From positions 1 to 33,878 of the IMG/VR virus record IMGVR_UViG_3300012920_000128: a stretch of 33,878 bases of DNA. One strand, 5' to 3'. The position numbers and the translations under genes are program-made. The notes beneath the pieces are model-generated. The model saw only the letters and a program-made list of their open reading frames with translations, ran no database searches and was not told where the DNA came from. Below, piece after piece: positions 12,154 to 30,657 of this stretch (position 1 is its first letter; each line of letters begins with the position of its first letter). Source of the DNA: a virus.

Positions 12154-12339
12154 TTATCTACGGGCTCTTCTTGCTAATCTTCTAGCTCTTCTCTGAGATA
12201 TTCTCCTTCTGCGTGCAGTTCTAGGATGTATACGGTTAGGCAAAGCATCAGGGTTTGGTGTTTCTTTTTCAAACTCTTTAGCGAGCTCTGGGTTGTTGGC
12301 GTACATCCAACGGCGTTGTGCTTTACTCTGAAAGGGCAT
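12154..12339 (-). CDS. Arg-rich 61-residue protein, possible virion DNA-associated protein
   Basis: The N-terminal part (PFQSKAQRRWMYANNPELAK) resembles a short motif seen at the start of many small phage proteins encoded near packaging and structural genes; this is from memory. The last 20 residues are almost all Arg and Ala (TARRRRISQRRARRLARRAR), like a protamine-type DNA-binding tail. It is the last gene of the virion operon, and its ATG overlaps the end of the giant protein gene by 17 bases. A role in condensing or binding packaged DNA is inference. Confidence 0.6.
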   Translation of the reverse strand: MPFQSKAQRRWMYANNPELAKEFEKETPNPDALPNRIHPRTARRRRISQRRARRLARRARR

Positions 12340-15300
12340 CTCGAACTTCTTTTTTAATATCTCTTACTTGACTTTTTAAATCTTTAATTTGTTGTTGTAA
12401 CTCAGGGTCAACAAAATCACCGCTTGCTTTATTAGAAACCGGTTTTGAAACTTCATCTTTATCAGGTCTGTAATAACTTGTTGTTCCTATTAAATCAAGG
12501 AAATTTTCCTCTGTAAGTTTAACGTCTTTAAATGTGTTAAACAATCCTGCAAATGGGTCGAATCTAGTACCAGCGATTAACTCAAATATTGGTGTCAAGC
12601 TTCTTAAAGAAAACCCACCTTCTTGAGAAATCAAATTATACATACGAGAAACTACAGCACTATATGGGTTTACGATACTATCCTCAGAAAACCTTTTACC
12701 CTCTATCCTATTATTCATTACTTCAACAGCAGAACCTAAAAGCGGTATTGCATAAACTAAATTTAAAACAGTGTTAGAAAATTTTAATCTATTAAATACT
12801 TCTTCTTTGTCTTCATCATCTCCTAAGAAAAACTTTGCTGAGTTTGCCATAAAAACAAACATCGCATTTGCAATATAAGCATTTAGAGCAACTCTTCTTA
12901 TATCAGCTGCTTTAGGTTTTTTCCCGTTAATTATATCTGTTGTTATAGATGATACCCCCTGAGCAGTTTGATTCATTTGTAAATAGGTGGTGCTCATAAA
13001 CATAGTAAACGTTCTTGTAAGAGCGTCTGTATTTCTTTGTAGCTGAATTTTATCTGCTCCTCTTCTACTTTGTTGCGTGGCATTATAATCATTAAATATT
13101 CTTAAAGCTTCTTGAGGTGACATCCCGTTTTTAATATTTCTATTGTATACTATTTTATATCCCATAATACCTAATAAATCTCCTAATACAGTAGGAGAAG
13201 CAGCAGCAGCCCTATACCTTCTTAATGCAGGGGATTTTTTCAAACCTAAAGTTCCACCGGTTTCTAACCCATACAAATCTCCCCCGAAACCTTTTTCTAA
13301 TCTATCTCTAAAACTTGCAGATATATCTCTAGTTTCTTTAATTTCTTTTGGTAAATTAGATATTACTTGAGCCATGTCTATAGCAAAACCAAATAAATCT
13401 TTTACAAAATTAGGTTTACCGGATTTGTTAAATCTGTATTGTTCAAAAGCATTTACAAAAGAAGAAGCTTGCTTAGGTATCTGCATAAGTCTAAATGATA
13501 ACGCATATCCAGTAAAGTTATTTAAAGCTCTCGCAAAGAATCCTGTGTCCACCTGGTCTATACCATAACCTGGATTGACAATTGCATTAACACTATTTCT
13601 AACTAATCGTGTTGTACCAGTTTCATTCATCAAAGCTCCAACTCCATCTAACTTCATTATAGTGTTTAATTTTTTTACTGTAGATGCAAAAGCTTTATAC
13701 TTTTCTAACGTTTCAATGTGATTGTAAAGTGTATTGGTAAATGTTAAACCTCTTCCTAAATCTATAGGGCTTATTATGTCCTCTCTTGCTTTTAATGCAG
13801 GAGCTGTTTCAGCATTAAATATTGAACTAAAATCTCCAGCTGCTAATAAATCACTGCTAAACTTTGCCTGAGATATAGTTCTGGTAGGGAAATAATTTCT
13901 TATCTGCGGTAAGTTTATATTATTAATTCTAGAATATACATCATTAACTCCTTCATAATAATCTGTGCTTAAATAAACAATAAGCTTATCTATAAACTCA
14001 ATTACTTTATTATCAAGATTATTTTGAATATCATTTAAAACAGAATCAGTATAGCCCATTTTATTAAGCTTATCTTTTTGCACATCGTTTTTACTTAGAG
14101 CGTAAATACGAGCTATGTTATCAGCAGAGTATTCTACTTGTCTACCTTTTACATTTAAAAATATTTCTGGTTCTTTGAGTAAGTTTAATATATCATTGTA
14201 ATTATTTACACCCTCTATAGTAGAAGCTATTTCACTTATTTTATCTTGCTGATTAAATTTACCTCTTAAAGAATTTTCTTCAGCAATATTAGTTTCGTTA
14301 TAAAAATATTTTTGAAAAAATCCTTGGTCATTGTATCTGTCAAGTATCTTGGTAACGGTTTGTAGATTGGCTAAATATCTTCTTAAAGTTTGAAATAGAT
14401 TCCTTGCTGTTCTAAAGTTGTAAGTTTGTGCTACAGCTTTTAATCCTTTCCAGATTTTAAGTTTTTCAAAATCTCTTCTTATGCTAAGGTAATCTTGATT
14501 TAAGTCATTTATATTTTTAACAACTAAATTTCCGTCTTCATCAGTTTTATACAAAAACGGAAAATCCTTTTGCACTTGATTGTTGAGTTCATTTTGAAGC
14601 TCTTGCGTTTCACGTGCTTGAATTTCTCTTAAAGCATTTAGTTGTCTAATAGACTCTGCACGAGCAGCTTGTAAGTCAGTAAATAAAGCTTGCACTTCCT
14701 CTAAAGATTTTTCTTGAATATCTCCAAACATATCAAAAGCTAACACTCTATCTAAAAGTCTTGACTCTGATGATAATAATTTTTCTCCGGCTACTTCTTT
14801 GTTTGTTACTCTTTCTATTTCAGCTAAGTCAGATAAATCATTTGCTACATTGACCATAGCATCTACAGGATTTTTACCTGTAACTGCGTTCATTATCTCA
14901 CTGACAGCCTGAAAAAATTGTTTACCAGCTGCTGTTAAATCTCCACCTCTAATTTTGTTTGACCTTGTTTTAGTAGTTCTGGCTTTTTTATTTGCTAAAG
15001 TTTTTATTTTTTTAATTACACTTAGCTTTTGTTTTTCTCTTTGTTGCTCTATTTGTTTTATTATTTTTTCAGCAACAGCAGGTAAATCATCTTTGCTTGT
15101 AACCTTATTTATAGAGGAAACAAACCCTTTGATTTCTTTCTCATTTGGTAAAGCTTTTCTAATAAAATTATTAACAGTGTTTTGCGCTTGCTTTAAATCC
15201 TTTATACCTTTTTTGAAATCAGCTATTGAATTTTTTATTTGATTTATTTCTTGCTGTATAACTTTATTAGATGTTGTTCCTAAAGTTTTATCGAAACCTA

Positions 15301-17980
15301 ATAATAGTTGTTGTTGGTCTATCTCAGATAAAGTTTGAAATGTTTCATTGGCTTTTAACAACTCTATAGCTTTAGCTCTAAGTTCTGGATTATTAGGTTT
15401 TTCTTTAGATTTAAATTCATTTAACTGTTTTTGCACTGCATCAAATATAGGTTGCCCTACATTTATACCACCAGCTATATTTCTAAAAGCAGCAGGTATT
15501 TCTATTTTTAATTCTAAAAGAGGTTTTATATCTCTAACTTTAAACCCTCTACCTTGTAAAACTTTTTGTATTTGAATGTCTGAAAAACCTTGAGCTCTAC
15601 CTACAGAAATGGTTTCTTCCATGCTCATGCTAGGGTCGCCAATGGTTTCTATAATTTGTTCTGGAGATGTAGGGGAGGGTTCAACAGTTTCTTCGGCTGT
15701 AGTTTCAGCTACTGTTTCCCCTAATCTATCTAGCGCTTGCTCGACCTTCTGATAAATGCCTGTCCCTTCAAGCTGTTGTTGAATGGAACTTTCTCGAAGA
15801 GACTGTAAAATGTCGAGCCTGGTTTGTTCGCCGATGTATCTGGAGTTAACTGCTCGTTTTTCTTGGGCTTCATATTCAATTTGTTTTTCATTTAGTTGTG
15901 TTATTAATGCGTCAAGTTTATTACCAAACTCAGCGTTTGTTCCTGAGTCTAAGTCTAACAAAGATAAGGAATTATTTGCTTGATTCAAAGTAAAGTCTGT
16001 AATCCCAGCAGCCTTAAGGGCTTCCAAGGTTTTAGGTATGTCATTTACTGTCAATAAATATTCTTCAGCATTACGAGTAGCATCAGTTTCTTCTACGTAA
16101 TCAGCAGCTATGGTAGACTCTTGTGTTTCTGGGGCAAGTGCACCTAATATACTGGCTATTTGGTCAGCCTGGTCTCTAGTAACATCGCTTCCTAAATTTA
16201 CTACATTTGATATTTCTACTATTTCTACACCTTCATCATTTTTATATCCACCAATTGCTTCATCTATAACACCTTTAACTTCATAAGCATCTAATACATC
16301 GTTGATGGTTGTTATTTGTTGCTTATATTCAGGTTGTTGTCTTAAATTTATAGCGTCCTCTACTGTTTCTATTGATGTAGCAAAGAGAGGTGCTACATTT
16401 ATTCTTGGAGTGTCGAGTGCGACACTCTCATCTTTGACTTCAACTTCTTTTACAGCTTGCTCTGTGCTTGTTATTGGCTGAGCTTGTAAGCCTATATTTT
16501 TCAGTTCTTGATTAATAGACTTTATTCTTTCTATTTCTTTTGTAACAAGATTTACATCTTTACCAGCTACAAAATTTTCGAAAGTTAATTTTTCAAACAA
16601 TAAATCAGCTGCTTGTTTTTGTTGTTGAGTGTTAAGGTTTTGTGTCGGTATTTGGTCAAATATACCTTTTGCTACAGCAAAGTTTTGTTTTATTTGTTCA
16701 GCTCGTGTTTTGGATATCTCGTTTCTTTTAACTTGATTGTCAACTGTACTGTTAATAAATAAATCTGCATTTGGAGATTGTACTATTGGAAGCTGGTCTA
16801 TCTCCACTACCATATTACCAGATTCAACATCAAATGGCTCTAGTACATTATTATATTTACTTTTTTTTACGTTGTCGTTTAATATTTTTTGTTGTCTACC
16901 TTGCACAATTTTTTTAACTCCAGGAGCAAAAGATTGTATCGGCCCACCTGTAGCTCCTCCAATAACAAATGTATCCGCATATCTTGAAAATGCGTTTGCA
17001 AAAGCTTCTTCATCTCCAAGCACTATAAGGTCAGCTAAATCTTCAGTAGCTTCTGTAGCTAATTCTGAAACTCCCTCTCTTGCAAATCCTTTTTTATAAG
17101 CATTTAATATTGTTTTAAGTGATTCTTTAACAGCTTCTTTTCCTTTAGATGATAACGCTTCTCTTAAACCTTTGAACAGTTGACCACCCATTCTATAAGT
17201 TACTAATTCAAATATTCCTTCAGCTGTACCCGTAATCGCTGAGTTTAATTGTGTTTTAAAATTTAAATCAGCTCCTTCTTCTTGTAGACGTCTTGATTTT
17301 GTAGCTGCTGTTCCTGCTCCTATTGCGACAATACCACCAGGAGCAAACGCAGTAACTATTTGAGGTATAGCTCCTACTGCTTCATTTGTAAGTCTTCTTA
17401 AACCTCTACCCACATTTTCAGAAAAAATATCTTGAGTTATACCAGTGTCGTATTGTGTATCTACAAGCTCTCTTAATCGATTAGCTTCATTATACATTTC
17501 TCTTGAAAAGTCTGTGTCCATTGGTAAACCACCTCCAGTCTGAGCTTTTGCATTATTTATAGTTTCAAAAAATATTTCTCTTTGTTCTGGTGGAAGACTA
17601 TTTATATAATCTTTTTGTTCTTTAGGAGCAAATGCACTAAAAACTGTTTGGTTTATAAATAAGGGAATATCTGATATACCTCCTACAGTTCTTAAAAAAT
17701 TTGATTTAAAAATTTTACCTAAATCAGATTCTGGAGTTTTCTTTTCTTCAGCTGACTCTGGCTGCTCCGATAAACCATCTTCCAATTCTAACTCCGTACT
17801 TATTTCTGGAGTGTCTTTTTTTTTTAAGGAAACTTGAAATGATTCAAGAGTGGGAAACTTTTCTTTATCCAATAAAGGATATAATTGATTTACATCTCCA
17901 TCATCTAAAAACTTTTGCAGTTCTTCAGGGTTAGAAAAAACCCCTGTTGGCAATATGTCAAATAATTCTTGTGTTTCCAT
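12323..17980 (-). CDS. Giant (1885-residue) internal virion / ejection protein candidate
   Basis: This is one of two giant genes in the late operon. The N-terminal 130 residues are acidic and low-complexity, followed by a Gly/Ala-rich hydrophobic stretch near 195-220 (AIPQIVTAFAPGGIVAIGAG), long helical and coiled-coil parts between about 850 and 1200, and more hydrophobic stretches near 1700-1790 (ANAMFVFMANSAKFF and LNLVYAIPLLGSAVEVM). Such proteins in podoviruses travel inside the capsid and enter the host membrane. I see no lysozyme or transglycosylase motif. The C-terminal third may match an LPD-type polyvalent-protein domain. The ATG overlaps the upstream stop as TAATG. A palindrome at 16408-16427 lies in a linker. 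Confidence 0.6.
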   Translation of the reverse strand: METQELFDILPTGVFSNPEELQKFLDDGDVNQLYPLLDKEKFPTLESFQVSLKKKDTPEISTELELEDGLSEQPESAEEKKTPESDLGKIFKSNFLRTVGGISDIPLFINQTVFSAFAPKEQKDYINSLPPEQREIFFETINNAKAQTGGGLPMDTDFSREMYNEANRLRELVDTQYDTGITQDIFSENVGRGLRRLTNEAVGAIPQIVTAFAPGGIVAIGAGTAATKSRRLQEEGADLNFKTQLNSAITGTAEGIFELVTYRMGGQLFKGLREALSSKGKEAVKESLKTILNAYKKGFAREGVSELATEATEDLADLIVLGDEEAFANAFSRYADTFVIGGATGGPIQSFAPGVKKIVQGRQQKILNDNVKKSKYNNVLEPFDVESGNMVVEIDQLPIVQSPNADLFINSTVDNQVKRNEISKTRAEQIKQNFAVAKGIFDQIPTQNLNTQQQKQAADLLFEKLTFENFVAGKDVNLVTKEIERIKSINQELKNIGLQAQPITSTEQAVKEVEVKDESVALDTPRINVAPLFATSIETVEDAINLRQQPEYKQQITTINDVLDAYEVKGVIDEAIGGYKNDEGVEIVEISNVVNLGSDVTRDQADQIASILGALAPETQESTIAADYVEETDATRNAEEYLLTVNDIPKTLEALKAAGITDFTLNQANNSLSLLDLDSGTNAEFGNKLDALITQLNEKQIEYEAQEKRAVNSRYIGEQTRLDILQSLRESSIQQQLEGTGIYQKVEQALDRLGETVAETTAEETVEPSPTSPEQIIETIGDPSMSMEETISVGRAQGFSDIQIQKVLQGRGFKVRDIKPLLELKIEIPAAFRNIAGGINVGQPIFDAVQKQLNEFKSKEKPNNPELRAKAIELLKANETFQTLSEIDQQQLLLGFDKTLGTTSNKVIQQEINQIKNSIADFKKGIKDLKQAQNTVNNFIRKALPNEKEIKGFVSSINKVTSKDDLPAVAEKIIKQIEQQREKQKLSVIKKIKTLANKKARTTKTRSNKIRGGDLTAAGKQFFQAVSEIMNAVTGKNPVDAMVNVANDLSDLAEIERVTNKEVAGEKLLSSESRLLDRVLAFDMFGDIQEKSLEEVQALFTDLQAARAESIRQLNALREIQARETQELQNELNNQVQKDFPFLYKTDEDGNLVVKNINDLNQDYLSIRRDFEKLKIWKGLKAVAQTYNFRTARNLFQTLRRYLANLQTVTKILDRYNDQGFFQKYFYNETNIAEENSLRGKFNQQDKISEIASTIEGVNNYNDILNLLKEPEIFLNVKGRQVEYSADNIARIYALSKNDVQKDKLNKMGYTDSVLNDIQNNLDNKVIEFIDKLIVYLSTDYYEGVNDVYSRINNINLPQIRNYFPTRTISQAKFSSDLLAAGDFSSIFNAETAPALKAREDIISPIDLGRGLTFTNTLYNHIETLEKYKAFASTVKKLNTIMKLDGVGALMNETGTTRLVRNSVNAIVNPGYGIDQVDTGFFARALNNFTGYALSFRLMQIPKQASSFVNAFEQYRFNKSGKPNFVKDLFGFAIDMAQVISNLPKEIKETRDISASFRDRLEKGFGGDLYGLETGGTLGLKKSPALRRYRAAAASPTVLGDLLGIMGYKIVYNRNIKNGMSPQEALRIFNDYNATQQSRRGADKIQLQRNTDALTRTFTMFMSTTYLQMNQTAQGVSSITTDIINGKKPKAADIRRVALNAYIANAMFVFMANSAKFFLGDDEDKEEVFNRLKFSNTVLNLVYAIPLLGSAVEVMNNRIEGKRFSEDSIVNPYSAVVSRMYNLISQEGGFSLRSLTPIFELIAGTRFDPFAGLFNTFKDVKLTEENFLDLIGTTSYYRPDKDEVSKPVSNKASGDFVDPELQQQIKDLKSQVRDIKKEVRDALSE
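16408..16427. repeat. Palindromic element, copy 3 (GAGTGTCG-N4-CGACACTC)
   Basis: Perfect 8-base arms around AGTG. In the coding (-) direction it reads S-V-A-L-D-T, within a low-complexity linker of the giant protein, the same frame as in copies 1 and 2. Confidence 0.6.
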
Positions 17981-20804: not shown

Positions 20805-22364
20805 TTACGGATAGCTTTTCATAGCCTCCGACTCTACAGCAAAGAGTTCTGTAGATGTTGTATTTTCATTTGTGAGGGTAAAAGTAAGTTGATGTCCTAG
20901 CATACCGTGAGTTTCAACCTCCATATTTTTAATATAAAGTATATAAGGCTGTGCTTCGCTTATGATTGTGCTGCCTGTTATATCAGTGTTAACAAATATT
21001 CTATTTATTCCACTCACTAAGTTAACTTCTATATTAGTTATTTGACCGCTGAAATTAATCGTAGTATAGGCCCCTTCAGAAAAATAAATGTAATCTCCTA
21101 TACTAACTATACTTCCAATAGATACTAAAGGTGAAACAGAAAAATTGATTGTTAGTACATTGTTACTCTGATTCCATGTGCTTGCTTTCCCAATACCATT
21201 GGCTGACCTTAGGGCATATTCGTCTGCGGCAGCAGGGATAGTACCTGTTTTTCTAAGGTACGCAAAGTAAGCTCCTTCTTTCTTTTCGAACCATCGTGAA
21301 TCAATAAACCCATCATTTTGTATATCAGTTTGTAAATTAGCTGACCAAGGTGAATCTGACTCTAAATTTAGAGTTTTAAAGACTTTGTTTTCCAAAGGAT
21401 TGTCATTAAAGACACTTGTAATTTGTGAGTTATATTGTTGACCATAGTAGTTGTTTCTAAGTTCGTTTGTGTTGTGTTTGTATAAATTACCGCCTCTAAA
21501 AGTGTATAGATAATTATTCATTCCTATCATCATATCTGGTATGTACGAATAAAATGATGGCCAGCCCTGAACACTTTCACTATATGTTAGTGTATACTCA
21601 GTTTGAACTGGTGATGGAACTGGAGGTACAACACTAGGAACAGGAGAAGGCACAGGTGTTGGTGTGGGTGGTGTAGGTAATGGCCCGGAACAAGTGGTTG
21701 AATTAAATATTAAATTGTTTTGGCCACCCATATATCCGTGATAATAACACTCATAGCTCATAATAAATGGCCCACCTATAACAGTAAGTGTAACATCACC
21801 GTAATAATATGTATAAGGATTACCGTCTAACCCATTTTTAATACCTACAGAAGTTGTACCGGTATAAGTAAATACATTAGTCAAATTAAAATTTTGAAAT
21901 GCAATTGGATGAGCAGCAGGTATGTTTTTTAAAACGTATGTACCTACTGTAACTCCATAAGTTCCATAATTGCCGCCAAACACAAACTTATTTCCACCGC
22001 TTATATTTTGTATTGTAACCTCATCACTTCCTGTCAAACAATAATCTGGCACTGGTTGTGTAGGTGGCGTTGGAGGTGTAGGTGGCGTTGGAGGTGTAGG
22101 TGGCGTTGGTGTAACTGGAATAGGCGTAGGGTTAATTGTACCACAAGCGGTGCTACAAGCTGTTGTGGTATTAACGGTAGTACCAGAAACAGAGTTTCTT
22201 TGTATGCCTCCACTTGGCCCTGTTATGTCTATACAAGGTGATGATATTTCGCCTTCAAGCAATGTTATTCTTTGCTTTGTTCCATCACAACAAGTTATAG
22301 TCCATTCACATTGTCCTCCAACTGCACCTATATCACAGGTCAAAGTATAAATTACACAAGACAT
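20805..22364 (-). CDS. Tail-associated protein with Pro/Thr linkers and a cupredoxin-like domain
   Basis: Four parts are seen in 519 residues: an N-terminal Cys-rich bead (1-76, with CC at 25-26); a Pro/Thr linker (80-106) of PPT repeats; a beta-sandwich domain (about 108-228) with HPIAFQ (His152) and ECYYHGYMGG (Cys206, His209, Met212), the ligand pattern of a type 1 copper site in cupredoxins; a second Pro linker (about 228-255); and a C-terminal domain with ESVQGWPSFYSYIPDMMIG and NPLENKVFKTLNLESDSPW, which I recall as a conserved segment of structural proteins in Bacteroidetes phages. It likely forms an outer tail or receptor-contacting part. The GT and hydroxylase genes lie just upstream in the operon and could modify its linkers. 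Confidence 0.65.
   Translation of the reverse strand: MSCVIYTLTCDIGAVGGQCEWTITCCDGTKQRITLLEGEISSPCIDITGPSGGIQRNSVSGTTVNTTTACSTACGTINPTPIPVTPTPPTPPTPPTPPTPPTQPVPDYCLTGSDEVTIQNISGGNKFVFGGNYGTYGVTVGTYVLKNIPAAHPIAFQNFNLTNVFTYTGTTSVGIKNGLDGNPYTYYYGDVTLTVIGGPFIMSYECYYHGYMGGQNNLIFNSTTCSGPLPTPPTPTPVPSPVPSVVPPVPSPVQTEYTLTYSESVQGWPSFYSYIPDMMIGMNNYLYTFRGGNLYKHNTNELRNNYYGQQYNSQITSVFNDNPLENKVFKTLNLESDSPWSANLQTDIQNDGFIDSRWFEKKEGAYFAYLRKTGTIPAAADEYALRSANGIGKASTWNQSNNVLTINFSVSPLVSIGSIVSIGDYIYFSEGAYTTINFSGQITNIEVNLVSGINRIFVNTDITGSTIISEAQPYILYIKNMEVETHGMLGHQLTFTLTNENTTSTELFAVESEAMKSYP
22063..22111. repeat. 18-bp tandem repeat encoding the PPTPPT linker
   Basis: The unit GGTGGCGTTGGAGGTGTA is present twice exactly (22063-22080, 22081-22098), with a partial third copy to 22110. 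It codes the Pro-Pro-Thr linker on the minus strand. Identity at the DNA level suggests slippage growth. Confidence 0.8.
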
Positions 22365-22381
22365 ACATTAAATTTTATGTA

Positions 22382-22389
22382 CAAATTTA
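22382..22389 (-). promoter_or_regulatory. Possible -7 element TAAATTTG
   Basis: TAAATTTG fits TANNTTTG and sits 17 bases before the ATG of the cupredoxin-domain protein. No -33 TTTG is found at the right distance, so this is a weak candidate. Confidence 0.28.
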
Positions 22390-22407
22390 CGAATTTAAAA
22401 GTTAAGT

Positions 22408-23241
22408 TTAGTTTTGAATCCAGTCTCTAACTAAATTGTAAAAATTGGTATGAGGATAAGAGGATATATCGTGATTAGGAAAGGTAGCTTTATTAAAAAC
22501 TTTATCTACACTATAATGCACAAAGTAATGGTTTTGTATGTTATAATCATTGTGTGAGGGTATATAAGTGTTATCTTGACTAATCATTTTTATTTTATGA
22601 TTATGACAAACAATAGAAAAAGCAGTCATACAAGACCACCATTTCCAAAGTGGGTCACAGTCTGACTCTATAATTTTTTCAGCAATATTTATGACGTCAT
22701 CTATTATTTTTTTTAAAGTTTTGTTTTTTATAAAAATAGGAATGAAACCACCATTCATATACCCTTCGTCATTATGATGTAAATATGGTTGTATTTTGTA
22801 GTAATTTTTTTTTGATGAGTTTGCTATAAACATATGCCAGTCTTCATATCCATCGTAACATATTACATTGTCATCGCCCGGCAAAACATTATCATATTTT
22901 TTTAACATCACTACATCCATATCCGATAGAACTATTATATCTTCGTCAGAAAAATTTTTGATTATAGGTTTTAAAGCAGAAAAAACATTAATTACCACAC
23001 AATTATCGTTTTTACTTTTTACATATTTCCATATTGCAGGACACATATGGTATGGTAATCCATGCAACTTCCAATCAATATCGTTATAAATTTTATCTTT
23101 CGTTGTGTTTTGTTTTACGACAGATAAAATACTATTATTAAAAGCTTCTTGTCCGTATATTTTTTTTTGTGCATATGACCAAAAATTAGCCATCCATTTA
23201 TATCTATCATCTACAATTGAAACTGGTATAAATCTTAACAT
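22408..23241 (-). CDS. GT-A-fold glycosyltransferase-like protein
   Basis: The 277-residue protein has a central IIVLSDMDVVMLKKYD (102-117), where a hydrophobic strand ends in D-x-D (107-109), the metal and sugar-nucleotide motif of GT-A enzymes. GYMNGGFIPIF (160-170) resembles the acceptor-side N-x-G-F loop of GT8-like transferases, and a His-rich C-terminal segment (HNDYNIQNHYFVHYS) could complete the site. No membrane segment or signal peptide is visible, so it acts in the host cytoplasm. It lies between the hydroxylase and a Pro/Thr-rich tail protein, which suggests sugar transfer to a hydroxylated tail; this is inference. The exact family is not resolved. Confidence 0.6.
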   Translation of the reverse strand: MLRFIPVSIVDDRYKWMANFWSYAQKKIYGQEAFNNSILSVVKQNTTKDKIYNDIDWKLHGLPYHMCPAIWKYVKSKNDNCVVINVFSALKPIIKNFSDEDIIVLSDMDVVMLKKYDNVLPGDDNVICYDGYEDWHMFIANSSKKNYYKIQPYLHHNDEGYMNGGFIPIFIKNKTLKKIIDDVINIAEKIIESDCDPLWKWWSCMTAFSIVCHNHKIKMISQDNTYIPSHNDYNIQNHYFVHYSVDKVFNKATFPNHDISSYPHTNFYNLVRDWIQN

Positions 23242-23261
23242 ATAAGACGGATATTTTTTTA

Positions 23262-24494
23262 TTAGTAGCCTTCTAACTGATAATGAACGTAAAAGTTTCT
23301 AAAATATTTACCTCCAAAAACTTCTTTTCTTCCGTGCTCACATATGGCTGATTCATAAAGAATCATATCACCTGGCTTTGCATAAACTTTATACCACTCA
23401 CCGTCATGTCCTTTAATATCTAAGGGCCAGTCATCTGCATATTTTTTATTTTGACAGCCACAAGTCAAATCTTTATCCACTATTATTATAGAAGAAATAT
23501 GATGAGTCTCAATTCTATCGGTATGTTCAGTTAAAGTTGCACCTTTTTGATATGACCTGATACCATAGATATAATTAGGAATTAATTTGTGTTTGCAAAA
23601 ATCTTCGTGTACAGGTTTTAGCTCTTCATGTATAATTGTTTTAATGGTAGGTAGCCAACCAAAATCCATAATGGAGCTGTTACCAGGTATCCACTTTTCT
23701 TTATCTTCAAAAGTTTCATCTACTTCTTTTGATTGCAAAAGTTGATAGCTTTCTTTTATTAAATTCCATGCTTTGTCTGGACACTTTGTTATTTCAAAAC
23801 CATTAGTAGTTAATTTAGGCAACGTTTTGTTTCTTTCTTCAACTCTATCAGGTTTTACTTTAACTATTTTACTCTCATTAATTTGACTTTCTTCTTTATT
23901 GTTATTTTTTTCATCTTCATAAAGTTGAGCATCTCCCGCTCCATCCCATTTTTTTTCTCTCCACCACGATGTTACTATATATTTTTTACCAGAAGTTACA
24001 GGCATACCTTCATGCAAAGTCTCAGGTAAAACTTTATTATCGCTCATATTAGCCCACCATAAAGCTTTACCGGTTACTGCTTTTACTTTTTTATTTAAGG
24101 TAGGAAAATTTGTTTCACCACCTTCATAATCATCATTTAGATAAATCATTAAAGTATGAGTTCTGTTACCTGATGCCTTACAGTGCATATTGTAAGCAGG
24201 GCCAGTAAAAAAATCATTGTGTGGCTTAAAATATTGACCTACTTCATATAGTTGTCCTTGTAAAGATTCCCCATTTTCAAAAGGCAAATTTAGGTGTTGA
24301 CTTATTCTTTTATGAATACTATTTACTATTACATTGGAAGGGTCTAAATTACTTGTTGAAGATGTTCTATGGTCGGTAACATCCTCTCTATCAGTTCCAC
24401 CTACTACTACAGATGAACGAGAATTATTTGAGTCAATTAGTTTAATAATTTCATCACACTCTTGGTGAGAAATAAAGTTTGGTATTTCGTGCAT
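23262..24494 (-). CDS. Double 2-oxoglutarate/Fe(II) oxygenase with a prolyl 4-hydroxylase domain
   Basis: The N-terminal domain (1-182) matches prolyl 4-hydroxylases closely: RTSS (43-46), LQGQLYEVGQYFKPHND with the HxD iron ligands His92 and Asp94, GGETNFP (125-131), and HEGMPVTSGKKYI with the third ligand His161 and the 2-oxoglutarate Lys171. A charged linker (185-225) joins a second, divergent oxygenase domain (230-410) with HTD (His324, Asp326), DWPLDI, and CEHGRKEVFGG with His387. Both domains keep their iron ligands. The family hydroxylates proline in collagen-like or Pro-rich peptides. It sits between the gene for the tail nozzle with Pro/Thr linkers and the glycosyltransferase gene, so tail linkers are the likely substrate (inference). 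Confidence 0.88.
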   Translation of the reverse strand: MHEIPNFISHQECDEIIKLIDSNNSRSSVVVGGTDREDVTDHRTSSTSNLDPSNVIVNSIHKRISQHLNLPFENGESLQGQLYEVGQYFKPHNDFFTGPAYNMHCKASGNRTHTLMIYLNDDYEGGETNFPTLNKKVKAVTGKALWWANMSDNKVLPETLHEGMPVTSGKKYIVTSWWREKKWDGAGDAQLYEDEKNNNKEESQINESKIVKVKPDRVEERNKTLPKLTTNGFEITKCPDKAWNLIKESYQLLQSKEVDETFEDKEKWIPGNSSIMDFGWLPTIKTIIHEELKPVHEDFCKHKLIPNYIYGIRSYQKGATLTEHTDRIETHHISSIIIVDKDLTCGCQNKKYADDWPLDIKGHDGEWYKVYAKPGDMILYESAICEHGRKEVFGGKYFRNFYVHYQLEGY

Positions 24495-24528
24495 TTGATT
24501 AAATTAAATTTTTATAAAGATATAAAAA

Positions 24529-27500
24529 TTATGGACAACCAGTACAGCTTGTAAATGAAGTTCCATTCCAATATCTTGAATAAGAACCATTGCTCACATA
24601 GATAGCACTAGGAAAAAGACTTGAACAAGTGTTACTAGTTCCATACCATTCTGTTGCTAAACAAAATGATGCGTTATTAAAATAATTTGTTTCTCTTCTT
24701 GAAGATGAACAAGCATTGTTTCCGCTTGTATTATCTCTTCCAATATTATTTATTGCAAAACAATTGCTTGGAGTAGGTGGCGTTGGAGGTGTTGGAGTAG
24801 GGGTTGGAACACCAGAAGCTTCACAGGTTGCACAATCAGTAAAAGGGTCATAATTAGTATACACAGGGCCAGTTGTTCCTCCTAAATCTATGTACTCATA
24901 ACATATACCAGATATTTTAAGAACATTAGGGAATGTTGTTCCTCCTGGGCCGCTTACCTCGGCGAGTATATCTCCACCTCCAGTTGCACAATCTCCATAT
25001 CTTGCATATACTGTTGCTGGCACAGGTGGAGGTGTTGGTACAGGAGGTGTAGGCGGTACAGGCGCTGGAGCAAATCCACCACAGCTTGATTGTATTTGTA
25101 CATAGGTTACTTGCGAATTATAAAAAGTTGCGGCTGCATCTATTATCTCCCAATATTTAGTTCCATTAAAAGCAGGATTAGGGCCAGATGCACCACCATT
25201 TAAAGTTAATGCTAAACCATTAGCTAGTGTTGGGGCAGTAAGATTAGTAACTCTTACGTAATATGTAGGAGATGTAGTGTAACACTCTCTAATCTGTATA
25301 TCCTGAAACGTAGCTGGAGTAGGTGGAACTGGCGGTGGACTAGGAGGCGTAGCAGGTGGACATCCAGTGCTTGACCCTACTGCTTGTATGTTTTGACATC
25401 CTAAACCTTGGTCTGAAGTTTGACCTACATCTCCTGCATATCTATAAAATAAAGGATTTGACCCTGAAGTTCCGTCAACAAATCTTTGGTCAAATGTTGG
25501 TTGTGTTGCTGATTGAAAGTAACAATCCTGATGACTTCCACAAGATACTAGTCTATAAAATAAAGACGGTGTAGGAGTCGGAGGCGTCGGAGGCGTCGGA
25601 GGCGTCGGCGTCGGAGGCGTCGGAGGTATTGGCGGGATACCTTGACAGTCAGAACAGTTGGAGTATGTTAAGGTAGGTATGTCTACAGTACTAGTAGAAC
25701 CTGTACTTTGAGCATTACTATAACATATGTTTTGATATTTAACTACAATAGGTATTATCAATCCTTGTCCATCTACAAACCTAAAAATTTGTTTTGCAGC
25801 TGAATCATCACACTGTGAATACTCTCTATATGTAAAAGTAGGTGTTGGTACAGGGGTTGGTACAGGAACTGTTGCTTGACATGCCGGACAATCTGCAAAT
25901 GTTGGTAAAGTTGTTATATCAGTATTAGATGTTGAAGATGTAGCTTGTGGATTTTCATAACATTCTCCATCAAATTTAATAAAACCAGGGAATGAATATC
26001 CAAATGCTCCTTTTGCAATCATAATTATGCTAGCATCATTACATTGTTGATACTGTCTAAACTCTTCAGTTGGCGTTGGCGTCGGCGGTGTAGGCCCTGG
26101 TGTTGGTGGGGTAGGTGGATTAGTATTTCTATAATCATAAACTAAATATAAGTTGTTACCTGAAGCTGGCACTGTAAATGAACCAGAATATAAACTTGGA
26201 GCTTGAGATGTATTCAGTGGCATTGATATAGCTTGACTCAACAGGCTAGTGATTGACGTAATATCATTAGTAAATACAGTGTCACTTCTTAAATATGCAA
26301 ATCCGTTAGCATTAGTGTCAAAGACAAAATCATCAAAATTAAATTTGTTTGCAGCAATAGTCATAACCGAACCATCAGTAGGTAATAATCCAACCCCTTG
26401 ATTTCCACTTACTACATTATATTGAGATATAACAAAATTTCCTGTGCCACTACCAAATGGTACTAAATTAGATTGTGTTGCTGATATCAAACTTCCATCT
26501 GACCAAGAGGCTTCGTTATGAATAAACTCTCCAGCATTTATAGTGTCTGTAACACAAATACTATAAAGGTTTAATAATGAACCACTAGGACATCCGACAG
26601 TAATTTCTATAGTGTCATCTACGGTAGCAGTAGATGTAACTTCTATAATAACTTGATTGATTGTTGTGTTGTTTTTAGGAAAAGTAAAACTGCCGCTTGA
26701 ATAAATAACACCTGTAGTAGTAGAAACACCATCATAAATTGCTGTTATTGTATAACCTATTGGACTAACAGCTCCTTCAGTTTCAATTTGCACTCCATTT
26801 TCAGTTACAATATCTTGAGAAGTAAGTTCTGTAATAATATCTTGAGACCCTTCATCAGGTATTACGTAAGAAACTAAAACATCACCAACTTGTTCTTCTA
26901 AATCTACACAGTATATAAATTCATTATTTGCTGGTACAGTTATATCTCTTGTAACCCCACAAGCAGTACACTTGGCTACTTCTGGTTTCAGTATAGTGTT
27001 TGAGGTTAAGACATATTCATTCATGTAAGGGTCATATCCTCCCAGTTTTTGTGTAGTAAATGCAGCAGTAAATAAATCTCTAAACCAGCTTCTCATACCT
27101 GCCTCTGATATTACTCTCAGTTGTTCATTAGAAGCTGAGCTTCCAACTAAATGTATAACAGCGCTTCTTTTAGCATCGGTAAAATATTTACTTTCACCCC
27201 ATACAGCAAAACTTTCAGGATTATTACTAATACCATAATCCTCTATTCTGGCTATTTGTTTACCTAAAACTTCTGGCACAGAAGTAAGTTGTCCATTACC
27301 ACTTGCATCACTTAACAAGTCTTTACCAGCTAGCACGTAAGATATTTTATCTTCTTGTAAAACTAATATATCGTCACGCCTTGCATTTAAAATCTCTACA
27401 TCACCAAAAGTTTCTTCTAATGGTTTAAAATTTGCTAAACCAAGATTAAATTCATTTAGCTTGTTTACGTTTGTTTCATCGTTAAAAACACCACTATACG

Positions 27501-30500
27501 TCAAATCAGCAAATCTGTGTGCTTTTTGAAAAGTAGTATTAGATGTAGTAAAGGTTCTATTTCCTAAATTAAATTGTGCACCAAAAGATTCGTCTAAAAT
27601 TTTAAAACTCTCAACTCCATTTCCAAATGTAAAACAATTTGAAAAATCAGTAAGAACAACACCAGGCACTTGAGCGCTTATGTCTTGGTCTTGTACATTT
27701 CCTAAATGATTACCTACACTATCTATTTCAAATGTTTGAGCACTTTCATACCATAAATCAGGTAAAGCTTCTTTGGGTTCAGTTTCAAAAACTACAACTG
27801 AATCTCTTCTGTATATTGTAAAATCAACTCTTACTTGAGAATCTCCTTTAGAACTTCTTGAAGCACAACCAGTTGTTCCCGAAACAAGTAAATAGAAACT
27901 ACCCGGTGATGTACTCGTATCCTCATAAAGCCTATAATAATTAACATTGTTTGGGTCTGTTGCAGTTGTACCAAAAACAGTTAAGATATCACTAGACATA
28001 TTAGAACCTTTGTTTGCTTGAGAAGGCAAACCAACTCCTGAATCAGTAGCAGTTATAAATTCATTTGAAACATTAGCTGGACTAACTGTAGCGTTATTTT
28101 GTATTATAGTTTGTAAATCTTCACCATCAAAAAACTCTTGTACCCCTGCATAAGTATCACTACAAATGATGGTTTGCTCTAGTATACTTGTTCTTCTTTC
28201 ACACTGATTTCCAGTGCCAGGTCTTTCCTGTTCTATTCTCATTACAACTCTTGTTCCTACAGGAAAATTATAATTTGAAGTAAAAGCACCTGAAGAATTT
28301 CTTAAAAAGAAAGGATAAGCAATTATAGGAAACCTTCTGGCTGCTTGTGCCTTTACAGGTTCAACTTTTTCATCTACTACATCGTCATCATCCATAACAG
28401 CTTGAAAAGCAATATTACTAAGTTTCATATAAACACCTGCTGGTATAACACTAATACCGGTGACTGTAATAAAATCCTTTTGTTGATTTACTACTTCTAG
28501 GACTGTAGCTTCTGTACATTGGTTTAGTGGGCCTGCTATATCTCTTTTGACTGTTAATCTATCTCCATCTTTTACTTTACCTATATTATCTCCTTCTAAT
28601 AGAAAATAAACGTTGTTACTGTTGTCATCTTCATAAAATATACTACTATAAATAGTCTCATAACTTTCTCTATCTGCTTTTATACAAAACTTATATCTTG
28701 TGGCAAAACTAGGAGCTCTTTGAGTTATTGGAATGTTGACCTGTATTTCATTTTTAGATGATGAAGCATTACATCCTATAAACAAAGTATTGTTTGTACT
28801 TACAAGAGCAGTGGATGCTCTATTAAAAGAGTCCATATATATAATACCAATCTCATATCCACGATTACTATGTAAACTACTTGTGTTAGATACTTCTGCA
28901 AGTGTTGCTGAAAAATTTGTAATCTTATAATATTCTACTAATGTATTTGTACCTACGCCTGTTTCTTCATATTCAGCTGCTAATATTTGTAATTGTAAAG
29001 TGGCTGGCAATATAACGGAGGCTGCTATACCTTCACCAGCTGAAGGAAGAGCGGGAGTTGAACTGGTTCTTCCGCTACGGTTTACATCATATTGTGTAGC
29101 TGCATTTGTCCCTAATTGTCCCTCAAGTGAAGAATTGAAAACATCTGTAAAAGTTGTTCCATCTCCATTTTGAGCATTTGCTAAAGTTTGAATACCAGAG
29201 GTTAATAAACCAAATTTTGCTATAAAATCATTTTCAGATATTAAGTCATTTATAGGTGTCAAACTTTGTGTAAAGTCTTTGTTAAGTGTATATGAGAATT
29301 GTATTGTTCTTGGCCCTGTTGTTTGGTCAGGGTTTAAAGAACCTGAACTCCATGAGTTATGTTCGTATGTTATCGAAAAACTTATTGTAGCTCCAACTAT
29401 TAGTTTATTTGTATTACCATCAAAATTAATTCTCAAAGCACTGTTTGGAATAGTGTTACTTCCGCCAAGCGTATAGCCAGAACTAGCTGTTTCTGCAGGC
29501 AATTGAACTTCACCCACTTCAGATTGAACTAAAGATGTGGTATATTCTAAAGCTAATGGTTCATTGAAAGTGTCTTTTAGGTCATACCCCTCTACATAAT
29601 TACCATAAACCAATCTATTAGCCATTAAAGTCTGAGCTTTTGCCAAGGTTGGAACATTATCAAAAGTTCTTAAAATTTCCGATTCTGGTAAAACAGAAAA
29701 TATTTTACTGTTATCAAATTCAAAAGTATAATTAGTGTTGTCTGAATATCCTTTTTCTTTTTTAATAATTCTTTCTATTACTCTTATAGTAGAATCATTA
29801 GCAAGTTTGTAAAGAATGTCTATTCCTTTTACTAATTCACTACCTGAATTAAATGTAACAATAACAGCATTAAACCTGTTAGTCATACCATCATTAGCAA
29901 AACTTTGTGCACTAAAATTAAAAGGTTTTGGTTGAAATGCTGGTTCGCTGAACTGAGAAGTCGCAGAATACTCTGCATTACTATATCTGTATCTATAACC
30001 AAAACAAACAAAATTGTCAGTTAAGAATGTATCATTTATTGAAGATTGTATCAACTGTAGAGTAGGAGCTTGAAAAGGTGGTTGTTTTACAACTTGTATT
30101 TCTCTCTCATCGAACTGGTCTATTTGTTGTCCTGCTAAATTAGCAGTAGGGTTTTCATAATTTCTTTCAATATTAATTACTCTAGGTGGGTTAGTGTTAT
30201 CTGTAAAAAATAATAAATTATCTATTTTGTTAATACCTGTTATTAAAAATTCAGGGTTAAAGTTTAAGGTAGTGTTTACATTTGCTCCATTATCTATACT
30301 ATAAATATGATATAGTATACCGCCAGTTTGTACGTTAAAAGAAATAATTAAATCTAATTTACCCGTTTCACCTAAAGTAAAAGCTGGGTCATGTACAAAC
30401 CAATATATTGTTTCATTAGCACCGTCTTCAAAGACACCTATACATCTTGCGGATGAGCTTAGCTTTGTACCATTATAATATTGAATATCTGTTAAAAGAG

Positions 30501-30657
30501 TATTTCCTCTTGAGTTTTCAACTGAACCTATTTCAGATTGTTCAGTAGAACCCAACCTTACATTCATAGCATTAGTATACTCACCATTAGGTAAAAGCCT
30601 TAATTCAAGGCTTTTATTCATACGGCCAGCTATAAAATTTCTTTGAATGTTTGCCAT
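24529..30657 (-). CDS. Giant tail nozzle/tubular protein with C-terminal Cys-bead and Pro/Thr-string array
   Basis: The N-terminus (NFIAGRMNKSLELRLLPNGE, then NAMNVRLGS) and a segment near residues 1140-1205 with SNNPESFAVWG, YFTDAKRSAVIHL and GGYDPYMNEYVLT are hallmarks, from memory, of nozzle or muzzle (tail tube B-like) beta-propeller proteins of podoviruses and crAss-like phages. From about residue 1515, six globular beads of 65-90 residues, each with two to six Cys, alternate with Pro/Thr-rich linkers (near 1516, 1600, 1685, 1772, 1872 and 1956). Beads 1, 2 and 5 share the pattern C-x-D...K...CYE...DCxxC. They probably project from the tail and bind the host surface. No enzyme motif was seen. 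It is the longest gene in the window, two bases after the ring protein stop. Confidence 0.72.
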   Translation of the reverse strand: MANIQRNFIAGRMNKSLELRLLPNGEYTNAMNVRLGSTEQSEIGSVENSRGNTLLTDIQYYNGTKLSSSARCIGVFEDGANETIYWFVHDPAFTLGETGKLDLIISFNVQTGGILYHIYSIDNGANVNTTLNFNPEFLITGINKIDNLLFFTDNTNPPRVINIERNYENPTANLAGQQIDQFDEREIQVVKQPPFQAPTLQLIQSSINDTFLTDNFVCFGYRYRYSNAEYSATSQFSEPAFQPKPFNFSAQSFANDGMTNRFNAVIVTFNSGSELVKGIDILYKLANDSTIRVIERIIKKEKGYSDNTNYTFEFDNSKIFSVLPESEILRTFDNVPTLAKAQTLMANRLVYGNYVEGYDLKDTFNEPLALEYTTSLVQSEVGEVQLPAETASSGYTLGGSNTIPNSALRINFDGNTNKLIVGATISFSITYEHNSWSSGSLNPDQTTGPRTIQFSYTLNKDFTQSLTPINDLISENDFIAKFGLLTSGIQTLANAQNGDGTTFTDVFNSSLEGQLGTNAATQYDVNRSGRTSSTPALPSAGEGIAASVILPATLQLQILAAEYEETGVGTNTLVEYYKITNFSATLAEVSNTSSLHSNRGYEIGIIYMDSFNRASTALVSTNNTLFIGCNASSSKNEIQVNIPITQRAPSFATRYKFCIKADRESYETIYSSIFYEDDNSNNVYFLLEGDNIGKVKDGDRLTVKRDIAGPLNQCTEATVLEVVNQQKDFITVTGISVIPAGVYMKLSNIAFQAVMDDDDVVDEKVEPVKAQAARRFPIIAYPFFLRNSSGAFTSNYNFPVGTRVVMRIEQERPGTGNQCERRTSILEQTIICSDTYAGVQEFFDGEDLQTIIQNNATVSPANVSNEFITATDSGVGLPSQANKGSNMSSDILTVFGTTATDPNNVNYYRLYEDTSTSPGSFYLLVSGTTGCASRSSKGDSQVRVDFTIYRRDSVVVFETEPKEALPDLWYESAQTFEIDSVGNHLGNVQDQDISAQVPGVVLTDFSNCFTFGNGVESFKILDESFGAQFNLGNRTFTTSNTTFQKAHRFADLTYSGVFNDETNVNKLNEFNLGLANFKPLEETFGDVEILNARRDDILVLQEDKISYVLAGKDLLSDASGNGQLTSVPEVLGKQIARIEDYGISNNPESFAVWGESKYFTDAKRSAVIHLVGSSASNEQLRVISEAGMRSWFRDLFTAAFTTQKLGGYDPYMNEYVLTSNTILKPEVAKCTACGVTRDITVPANNEFIYCVDLEEQVGDVLVSYVIPDEGSQDIITELTSQDIVTENGVQIETEGAVSPIGYTITAIYDGVSTTTGVIYSSGSFTFPKNNTTINQVIIEVTSTATVDDTIEITVGCPSGSLLNLYSICVTDTINAGEFIHNEASWSDGSLISATQSNLVPFGSGTGNFVISQYNVVSGNQGVGLLPTDGSVMTIAANKFNFDDFVFDTNANGFAYLRSDTVFTNDITSITSLLSQAISMPLNTSQAPSLYSGSFTVPASGNNLYLVYDYRNTNPPTPPTPGPTPPTPTPTEEFRQYQQCNDASIIMIAKGAFGYSFPGFIKFDGECYENPQATSSTSNTDITTLPTFADCPACQATVPVPTPVPTPTFTYREYSQCDDSAAKQIFRFVDGQGLIIPIVVKYQNICYSNAQSTGSTSTVDIPTLTYSNCSDCQGIPPIPPTPPTPTPPTPPTPPTPTPSLFYRLVSCGSHQDCYFQSATQPTFDQRFVDGTSGSNPLFYRYAGDVGQTSDQGLGCQNIQAVGSSTGCPPATPPSPPPVPPTPATFQDIQIRECYTTSPTYYVRVTNLTAPTLANGLALTLNGGASGPNPAFNGTKYWEIIDAAATFYNSQVTYVQIQSSCGGFAPAPVPPTPPVPTPPPVPATVYARYGDCATGGGDILAEVSGPGGTTFPNVLKISGICYEYIDLGGTTGPVYTNYDPFTDCATCEASGVPTPTPTPPTPPTPSNCFAINNIGRDNTSGNNACSSSRRETNYFNNASFCLATEWYGTSNTCSSLFPSAIYVSNGSYSRYWNGTSFTSCTGCP
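25571..25625. repeat. 9-bp tandem repeat (GGCGTCGGA) encoding a PPTP linker
   Basis: GGAGGCGTC-type units follow one another with almost no variation. They are far richer in G and C than the rest of the window and use CCG/ACG-type codons, while other Pro/Thr codons nearby prefer A or T at the third position. This suggests recent expansion. Confidence 0.75.

Follow-up and report, generated by a model that had tools for sequence, protein, structure and literature searches.

A candidate prolyl-hydroxylation and glycosylation cassette between the muzzle genes of a marine crAss-like phage

We analyzed a stretch of viral DNA of 33,878 nucleotides (IMG/VR record IMGVR_UViG_3300012920_000128; 33.9 kb, hereafter the window), in which an oxygenase with a prolyl 4-hydroxylase (P4H) domain and a glycosyltransferase (GT) are encoded between two genes for tail proteins carrying Pro/Thr linkers. 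The linkers are likely to be the substrate of this enzyme cassette, which probably hydroxylates and sugar-coats them, giving stiff, decorated spacers. Across 109 related loci, the cassette and long Pro-rich linkers were near-perfectly associated, GT families were repeatedly swapped, and linker composition tracked the content of the enzyme slot, also after phylogenetic correction.

A hydroxylase and a glycosyltransferase in the muzzle operon

The structural genes of the window matched crAss-like PHROGs and Pfam families, by which it can be assigned as a fragment of a marine crAss-like phage related to phi13:2 and elemo. The four genes of the cassette region all lie on the minus strand, with intergenic gaps of 34, 20, and 43 bases in order from the gene of the 2042-aa (amino acid) protein (Table 1). 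This protein, homologous to gp120 of Cellulophaga phage phi13:2 and to the N-terminal part of gp22 of the Flavobacterium elemo phages, consists of a core (aa 1–1500) followed by a C-terminal extension in which the linkers connect small Cys-rich domains. The 519-aa protein matched PF25729 (crAss_MUZ_C) with an E-value of 2.1e-20 and 73.4 bits (cut-off 27). In the elemo phages the muzzle C-terminal match falls inside one fused gene, gp22, and in phi13:2 gp120 and gp121, both annotated as structural, are adjacent with no gene between them. The muzzle of phiCrAss001, a crassvirus of solved structure, forms a hexamer that acts as gatekeeper at the tail tip and has a propeller like that of the T7 nozzle (PMC10172136). 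Because of these gene arrangements and this architecture, the two linker proteins are most readily understood as the N-terminal and the C-terminal part of one muzzle, with the enzymes occupying the gap between them. PDB sequence searches with the muzzle parts returned nothing useful; for the 2042-aa part, the solved crassvirus muzzle was sought and no match was obtained at an E-value of 1.

The linker scan detected exactly six linkers in the 2042-aa protein, all in its C-terminal extension and totaling 136 aa; the 519-aa protein has two, totaling 65 aa, in its N-terminal extension. The linkers connect small Cys-rich domains. Both totals exceeded every one of 300 shuffled controls (means 11 and 7 aa, maxima 47 and 46 aa), and no linker was found in five other proteins of the window, including the GT, the oxygenase, and a 1885-aa protein.

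As judged by Pfam, PDB sequence matches, and fold, the N-terminal half of the 410-aa oxygenase is a genuine P4H. It matched PF13640 (1.3e-17, 64.9 bits, cut-off 27) and the P4Hs of Bacillus, Chlamydomonas, Paramecium bursaria chlorella virus 1 (PBCV-1), and human in the PDB (E-values 1.1e-31 to 2e-13), and its closest structure was 3gze, an algal P4H with (Ser-Pro)5 (Z 24.1, root-mean-square deviation 1.9 Å over 178 residues). The iron triad H92-x-D94 and H161 and the 2-oxoglutarate (2OG) lysine K171 are invariant in 34 relatives, and the nearly invariant substrate-loop motif R43-T-S aligns with the RTS of the algal enzyme. A search of bacterial and archaeal genomes with the P4H profile recovered no relative. 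The C-terminal half, searched alone, had no PDB or Pfam match, and its interpretation as a second P4H was rejected for lack of sequence support. It keeps H324-x-D326, H387, and R399, a motif conserved in its relatives, and looks like a second, putative 2OG oxygenase.

The best matches of this C-terminal half, PHROGs 2954 and 3531, are both named ferrochelatase despite its HxD...H...R motif and the strands resembling a double-stranded beta-helix (DSBH) in its model; the phage "ferrochelatase" phrog_2954, widely reported to co-occur with 2OG oxygenases, may itself represent a family of such oxygenases. The C-half oxygenase also occurs as a stand-alone gene lacking the P4H half (locus L254, 5273–5872; L258, 4806–5408; L358). 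These genes lie in cassettes with an O-fucosyltransferase (O-FucT) and a carbamoyltransferase, accompanied by Val/Ala-rich Pro linkers.

The 277-aa GT had no Pfam match and no PDB sequence match. Its AlphaFold model (pLDDT 88) adopts a GT-A fold resembling glycogenin (Z 15.3, about 220 residues aligned) and LgtC (Z 14.8), with GT8, GT6, and GT24 structures among the matches; the likeness to GT8, the glycogenin/LgtC family, is a structural one only. The metal-binding D107-x-D109 is invariant in 15 relatives, and no counterpart of this GT was found in isolate phages. In the 98–99% identical relatives L001 and L002, a 220-aa GT34-like gene (L002, 9127–9789) missing from the window lies between the P4H and the GT. 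The enzyme slot thus varies even among near-identical phages.

The original prediction had described this gene order with its strand and coordinates, six Pro/Thr linkers in a nozzle protein, and a GT-A-like protein with a DxD motif, and all of these were borne out by the open reading frame positions, the linker scan, and the model. It had also described a double 2OG oxygenase with a full P4H motif set, which holds for the N-terminal half, while the C-terminal half is not recognizable as a P4H by sequence. Its second tail protein with PPT repeats does carry two linkers but is better regarded as the C-terminal part of the same muzzle than as an independent tail protein.

Table 1. Features of the muzzle operon in the window
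Feature	Coordinates	Strand	Basis
Tail muzzle/nozzle, N-terminal part, 2042 aa	24529..30657	-	phrog_14478 virion structural protein, E 6.8e-211 over aa 5-1269
Linker 1, NTNPPTPPTPGPTPPTPTPTEE	26062..26127	-	window scan
Linker 2, ATVPVPTPVPTPTFT	25831..25875	-	window scan
Linker 3, DCQGIPPIPPTPPTPTPPTPPTPPTPTPSLF	25558..25650	-	window scan; tandem repeat 25573-25634
Linker 4, STGCPPATPPSPPPVPPTPATFQ	25303..25371	-	window scan
Linker 5, GGFAPAPVPPTPPVPTPPPVPATVYA	25003..25080	-	window scan
Linker 6, SGVPTPTPTPPTPPTPSNC	24760..24816	-	window scan
Two-domain oxygenase, 410 aa	23262..24494	-	
P4H domain, N-terminal half	23925..24494	-	PF13640, PDB P4Hs, fold, residues
Putative second 2OG-oxygenase-like domain, C-terminal half	23262..23834	-	phrog_2954/3531 matches, conserved motif, DSBH-like strands in model
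P4H/GT junction, 20 bases	23242..23261	-	site of the extra 220-aa GT34-like gene in L002
GT-A glycosyltransferase, 277 aa, GT8/glycogenin-like fold	22408..23241	-	AlphaFold model, DxD (D107-M-D109)
Muzzle, C-terminal part, 519 aa, with linker-bearing N-terminal extension	20805..22364	-	PF25729 crAss_MUZ_C; phi13:2 gp121 homolog
Linker 7, INPTPIPVTPTPPTPPTPPTPPTPPTQPVPDY	22041..22136	-	window scan; tandem repeat 22058-22109
Linker 8, TCSGPLPTPPTPTPVPSPVPSVVPPVPSPVQTE	21597..21695	-	window scan

Linkers and slot content in 109 related loci

Scans of viral contigs with the GT, P4H, muzzle, GT60, and divergent P4H as queries yielded 109 non-redundant loci spanning the muzzle from its N- to its C-terminal part. 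All 48 loci with a P4H carried long Pro-rich linkers (108–324 aa). Two loci with only the C-half oxygenase, together with O-FucT and carbamoyltransferase, had linkers of 220 and 400 aa, and among nine with a GT60 enzyme and no P4H, seven had 118–378 aa and two had 30–39 aa. Overall, linkers of 108–400 aa were present in 57 of 59 cassette-bearing loci, the remaining two having 30 and 39 aa, whereas the 50 cassette-free loci had 0–32 aa in every case. Small Cys-rich tail domains of a similar kind occur in these relatives, where no Pro linkers accompany them. The original prediction had proposed that P4H and GT act on the linkers and had suggested a survey of phage genomes for their co-occurrence; within the muzzle lineage such a survey speaks for it (48/48 P4H loci with long linkers against 0/50 cassette-free ones), with the reservations that the contrast comes from two transitions only and that the P4H is not obligatory.

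The slot holds varied sets of enzymes: GT60/PF11397 (matches down to 5e-76), GT32, GT34-like enzymes, GTs of the type found in the window, O-FucT-like PF10250 proteins, two NAD epimerases, a carbamoyltransferase, a PhyH-like oxygenase, and a radical SAM protein. The relatives bring in enzymes characteristic of the glycosylation of proteins and of hydroxyproline. Foremost among these is GT60/PF11397, which stands beside the P4H in many relatives and is absent from the cassette of the window. In CAZy, the Skp1 hydroxyproline N-acetylglucosamine (GlcNAc) transferase, which acts after a P4H, belongs to GT60, as does a polypeptide GlcNAc-transferase of Trypanosoma cruzi that has been linked to mucin-type O-glycosylation (PMC6939170, PMC8724618). 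Since the family includes enzymes of both kinds, its repeated pairing with the P4H is informative.

As the 109 loci share ancestry, simple association statistics on them were set aside. Changes were counted on the core muzzle tree. The cassette changed twice, long linkers three times, and the P4H five times, compared with 10 changes for GT60, eight for GTs of the window type, seven for GT32, and six for O-FucT, and GT swaps therefore have more statistical power than the presence or absence of the cassette. The Thr content of the linkers was lower in 4/4 acquisitions of carbamoyltransferase/O-FucT and higher in 5/5 acquisitions of radical SAM with GT60 and in 2/2 groups with GT60 and no P4H, although these contrasts share one node (L362/L401 versus L358) and their direction was not predicted in advance. 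Cassettes with carbamoyltransferase/O-FucT kept linker Pro and lost most Thr (fraction 0.07–0.16), and the clade with GT60 and GT32 and no P4H had the most Thr-rich linkers, of the (TP)n type (0.34–0.37). Phylogenetic regression of the Thr shifts gave p = 4e-10, 1e-6, and 0.005 for these contrasts and associated GT32 without GT60 with contiguous prolines (p = 4e-7, from about three groups). In the pairs L360/L255 and L364/L365, GT genes were exchanged while the non-linker extensions of the muzzle remained 87–99% identical, which indicates that the slot was replaced on its own, and linker composition shifted in the same direction as in other GT swaps.

Acceptor residue and competing explanations

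As the most likely course, we propose that the cassette would be expressed late, together with the tail genes, and that the P4H domain would act in the cytoplasm on the muzzle proteins encoded at either side, hydroxylating their linker prolines before assembly or while it is under way. The GT-A enzyme, joined in near-identical phages by the GT34-like enzyme, would next add a sugar at hydroxyproline and/or Thr/Ser. The outcome would be stiff, glycan-bearing spacers holding the small Cys-rich tail-tip domains away from the muzzle. Because the GT slot is often exchanged between phages while the P4H is mostly kept, the glycan probably diversifies under selection from the host surface or from enemies. 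For hydroxyproline as the sugar acceptor in this phage, we put the chances a little short of even. Slightly more tentative again is the full proposal of a hydroxyproline-linked glycosylation system belonging to the phage itself, in which a P4H is combined with an exchangeable GT slot and the linkers are acceptor arrays co-evolving with the GT family.

Several results weigh against the cassette acting on the linkers as proposed. With only two changes of the cassette on the tree, its co-occurrence with linkers amounts to few independent events, and the second of these, the L437/L438 lineage, sits on a long branch of unsure placement. The slot is bordered by the genes that encode the linkers, and the two may be inherited together. 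In one clade, six loci combine long (TP)n linkers with GT60 and GT32 and either lost or never had a P4H; the P4H is dispensable there, and Thr may serve as an acceptor beside hydroxyproline. Two loci (L042, L048) have P4H and linkers with no GT in the slot, and the two with GT60 and short linkers are L336 and L386. Outside the lineage, a scan of the viral collection for the PPTPPTPPT pattern in DNA found 120 loci, 39 coding it in frame and 81 off frame. This P4H accompanied 3/39 of the in-frame loci, all three muzzle-bearing, and 0/81 of the off-frame ones. With 36/39 in-frame loci having no P4H nearby, a Pro/Thr repeat by itself is no sign of a P4H, and a general link was rejected; the rule is lineage-specific.

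The most serious competitor, which we nevertheless regard as unlikely, is that only Thr/Ser are glycosylated in a mucin-like manner, the P4H merely stiffening the linkers as a polyproline II helix or acting elsewhere. The Thr-rich linkers of the clade with GT60 and GT32 and no P4H, the GT60 member linked to mucin-type O-glycosylation, and the fact that PF10250 is a protein O-fucosyltransferase family all agree with it. However, the P4H is present in 48/59 cassette loci, directly adjoining the GTs and far more constant than any single GT family, and the Thr-poor linkers of the carbamoyltransferase/O-FucT cassettes leave hydroxyproline or Ser as acceptors. It is improbable, in turn, that the linkers are purely mechanical and co-inherited with the cassette on one recombining module, which would make the association uninformative on the substrate. 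Such hitchhiking would fit the position of linkers in both slot-flanking genes, the few transitions, and the rapid evolution of linker sequence compared with the sequence around it in several locus pairs; it fits poorly with the two pairs in which composition moved in the usual direction beside extensions still 87–99% identical, and with the linker-free Cys-rich domains of cassette-free relatives.

That P4H and GTs are auxiliary enzymes altering lipopolysaccharide or capsule, for instance in superinfection exclusion, and were inserted among tail genes for convenience, also appears improbable, if marginally more so. A similar enzyme kit in cyanophage S-SCSM1 has been interpreted, in the paper describing it, as modifying the host cell wall, and the epimerases supply sugar donors usable for any glycan. 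Modification of the host surface, however, predicts neither the lack of linkers in all cassette-free relatives nor a linker composition that follows the GTs, the substrate of a P4H is peptidyl proline, and the cassette separates two parts of a single tail protein inside the structural operon. We give hardly any credence to DNA hypermodification, in which the oxygenase and GT would act on bases like TET/JBP oxygenases and base glucosyltransferases. The pairing of a 2OG oxygenase with a GT is known from phage DNA modification, but the oxygenase matches peptidyl P4Hs (1e-31; Z 24) and not TET/JBP by sequence and fold, no base-hydroxymethylating gene was found among the scanned proteins of the window, and the slot belongs to a late structural operon. 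This role was rejected on the P4H fold and gene context.

Known systems and phages outside the muzzle lineage

Phage virion glycosylation, viral P4Hs, and eukaryotic hydroxyproline glycosylation are each already known. No description of the three combined in a phage was found in the open-access papers searched (subscription papers and preprints lay outside the search). In the Skp1 pathway of Dictyostelium and Toxoplasma (PhyA with Gnt1/GT60), hydroxyproline formed by a cytoplasmic P4H is glycosylated by a GT60 enzyme; in many relatives of the window, a P4H of this kind is likewise found beside a PF11397/GT60 enzyme. The GT of the window resembles glycogenin, a homolog of which contributes to Skp1 glycosylation in some protists. 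The pathway differs in modifying one site on a regulatory protein for oxygen sensing, rather than dozens of linker prolines in the repeats of a virion protein, and in relying on GT60, which the cassette of the window lacks. Extensin-type O-glycosylation of hydroxyproline in plants and algae likewise involves a P4H acting on Pro-rich repeats, in keeping with the algal enzyme as nearest fold. Contiguous-Pro and alternating-Pro linkers accompany different GT sets in the phage loci, and the Hyp-contiguity rule of plants makes the same split. Unlike in plants, no arabinosyltransferase or galactosyltransferase of a plant family was identified in the phage cassettes.

PBCV-1 encodes a P4H (vCPH) of related fold (Z 20.2), but it infects algae, and we know of no muzzle slot or adjacent exchangeable GT cassette in it. 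Hydroxyproline in its proteins has been proposed (Eriksson 1999, as cited in PMC9301287). In mycobacteriophages, phage-encoded GTs glycosylate structural proteins, including a tail protein (Freeman et al. 2023, as cited in PMC12619734 and PMC10877033), as is predicted here from genes; the glycans described in those accounts sit at the C-termini of capsid and tail-tube subunits, and P4H and Pro linkers are not mentioned there.

Marine phage genomes abound in P4H-like 2OG oxygenases, whose use has been called cryptic or ascribed to host metabolism (PMC9301287, PMC9602691, PMC11561400). One class of them now gains a concrete, testable substrate, the phage's own tail, and, if the proposal is true, hydroxyproline-linked glycosylation extends to bacterial viruses. 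Frequent GT swaps in a fixed slot suggest a fast-evolving tail glycan that would bear on adsorption and on how hosts or grazers recognize the phage.

Three isolate phages have a GT60 homolog: Xanthomonas phage XacN1 and Stenotrophomonas phages CM1 and RAS14. In the jumbo phages XacN1 and RAS14, GT60 lies close to a giant baseplate-region protein with (TP)n linkers, which in XacN1 (L461, 13371–23312 and 28929–33509) is 3313 aa long and near GT60, a carbamoyltransferase, and a GT9. No linker-rich neighbors were found within 9 kb of the distant P4Hs of the isolates Erwinia phage Y3, Salmonella phage Sen-NF, and Microcystis phage Mel-JY01. The S-SCSM1 kit (L457, 7261–18552) clusters O-FucT, 2OG oxygenases, carbamoyltransferase, epimerases, and GTs as in the crAss-like cassettes, and the virion proteins gp19 and gp155 have Pro-rich segments away from the O-FucT/carbamoyltransferase cluster, which is suggestive only.

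The muzzle profile matched 10 contigs of metagenome-assembled genomes among bacterial and archaeal genomes; because their host names conflict, no host was assigned from them. Judged by the phi13:2 and elemo relatives, Bacteroidota are the most likely hosts. Elsewhere in the window, the 1885-aa protein (12323–17980, minus strand) had no PHROG match better than an E-value of 0.005 and is, judged by its position, probably a large virion protein. The protein at 691–1800 combines a gamma-glutamyl cyclotransferase (PF06094) domain with part of a class-II glutamine amidotransferase.

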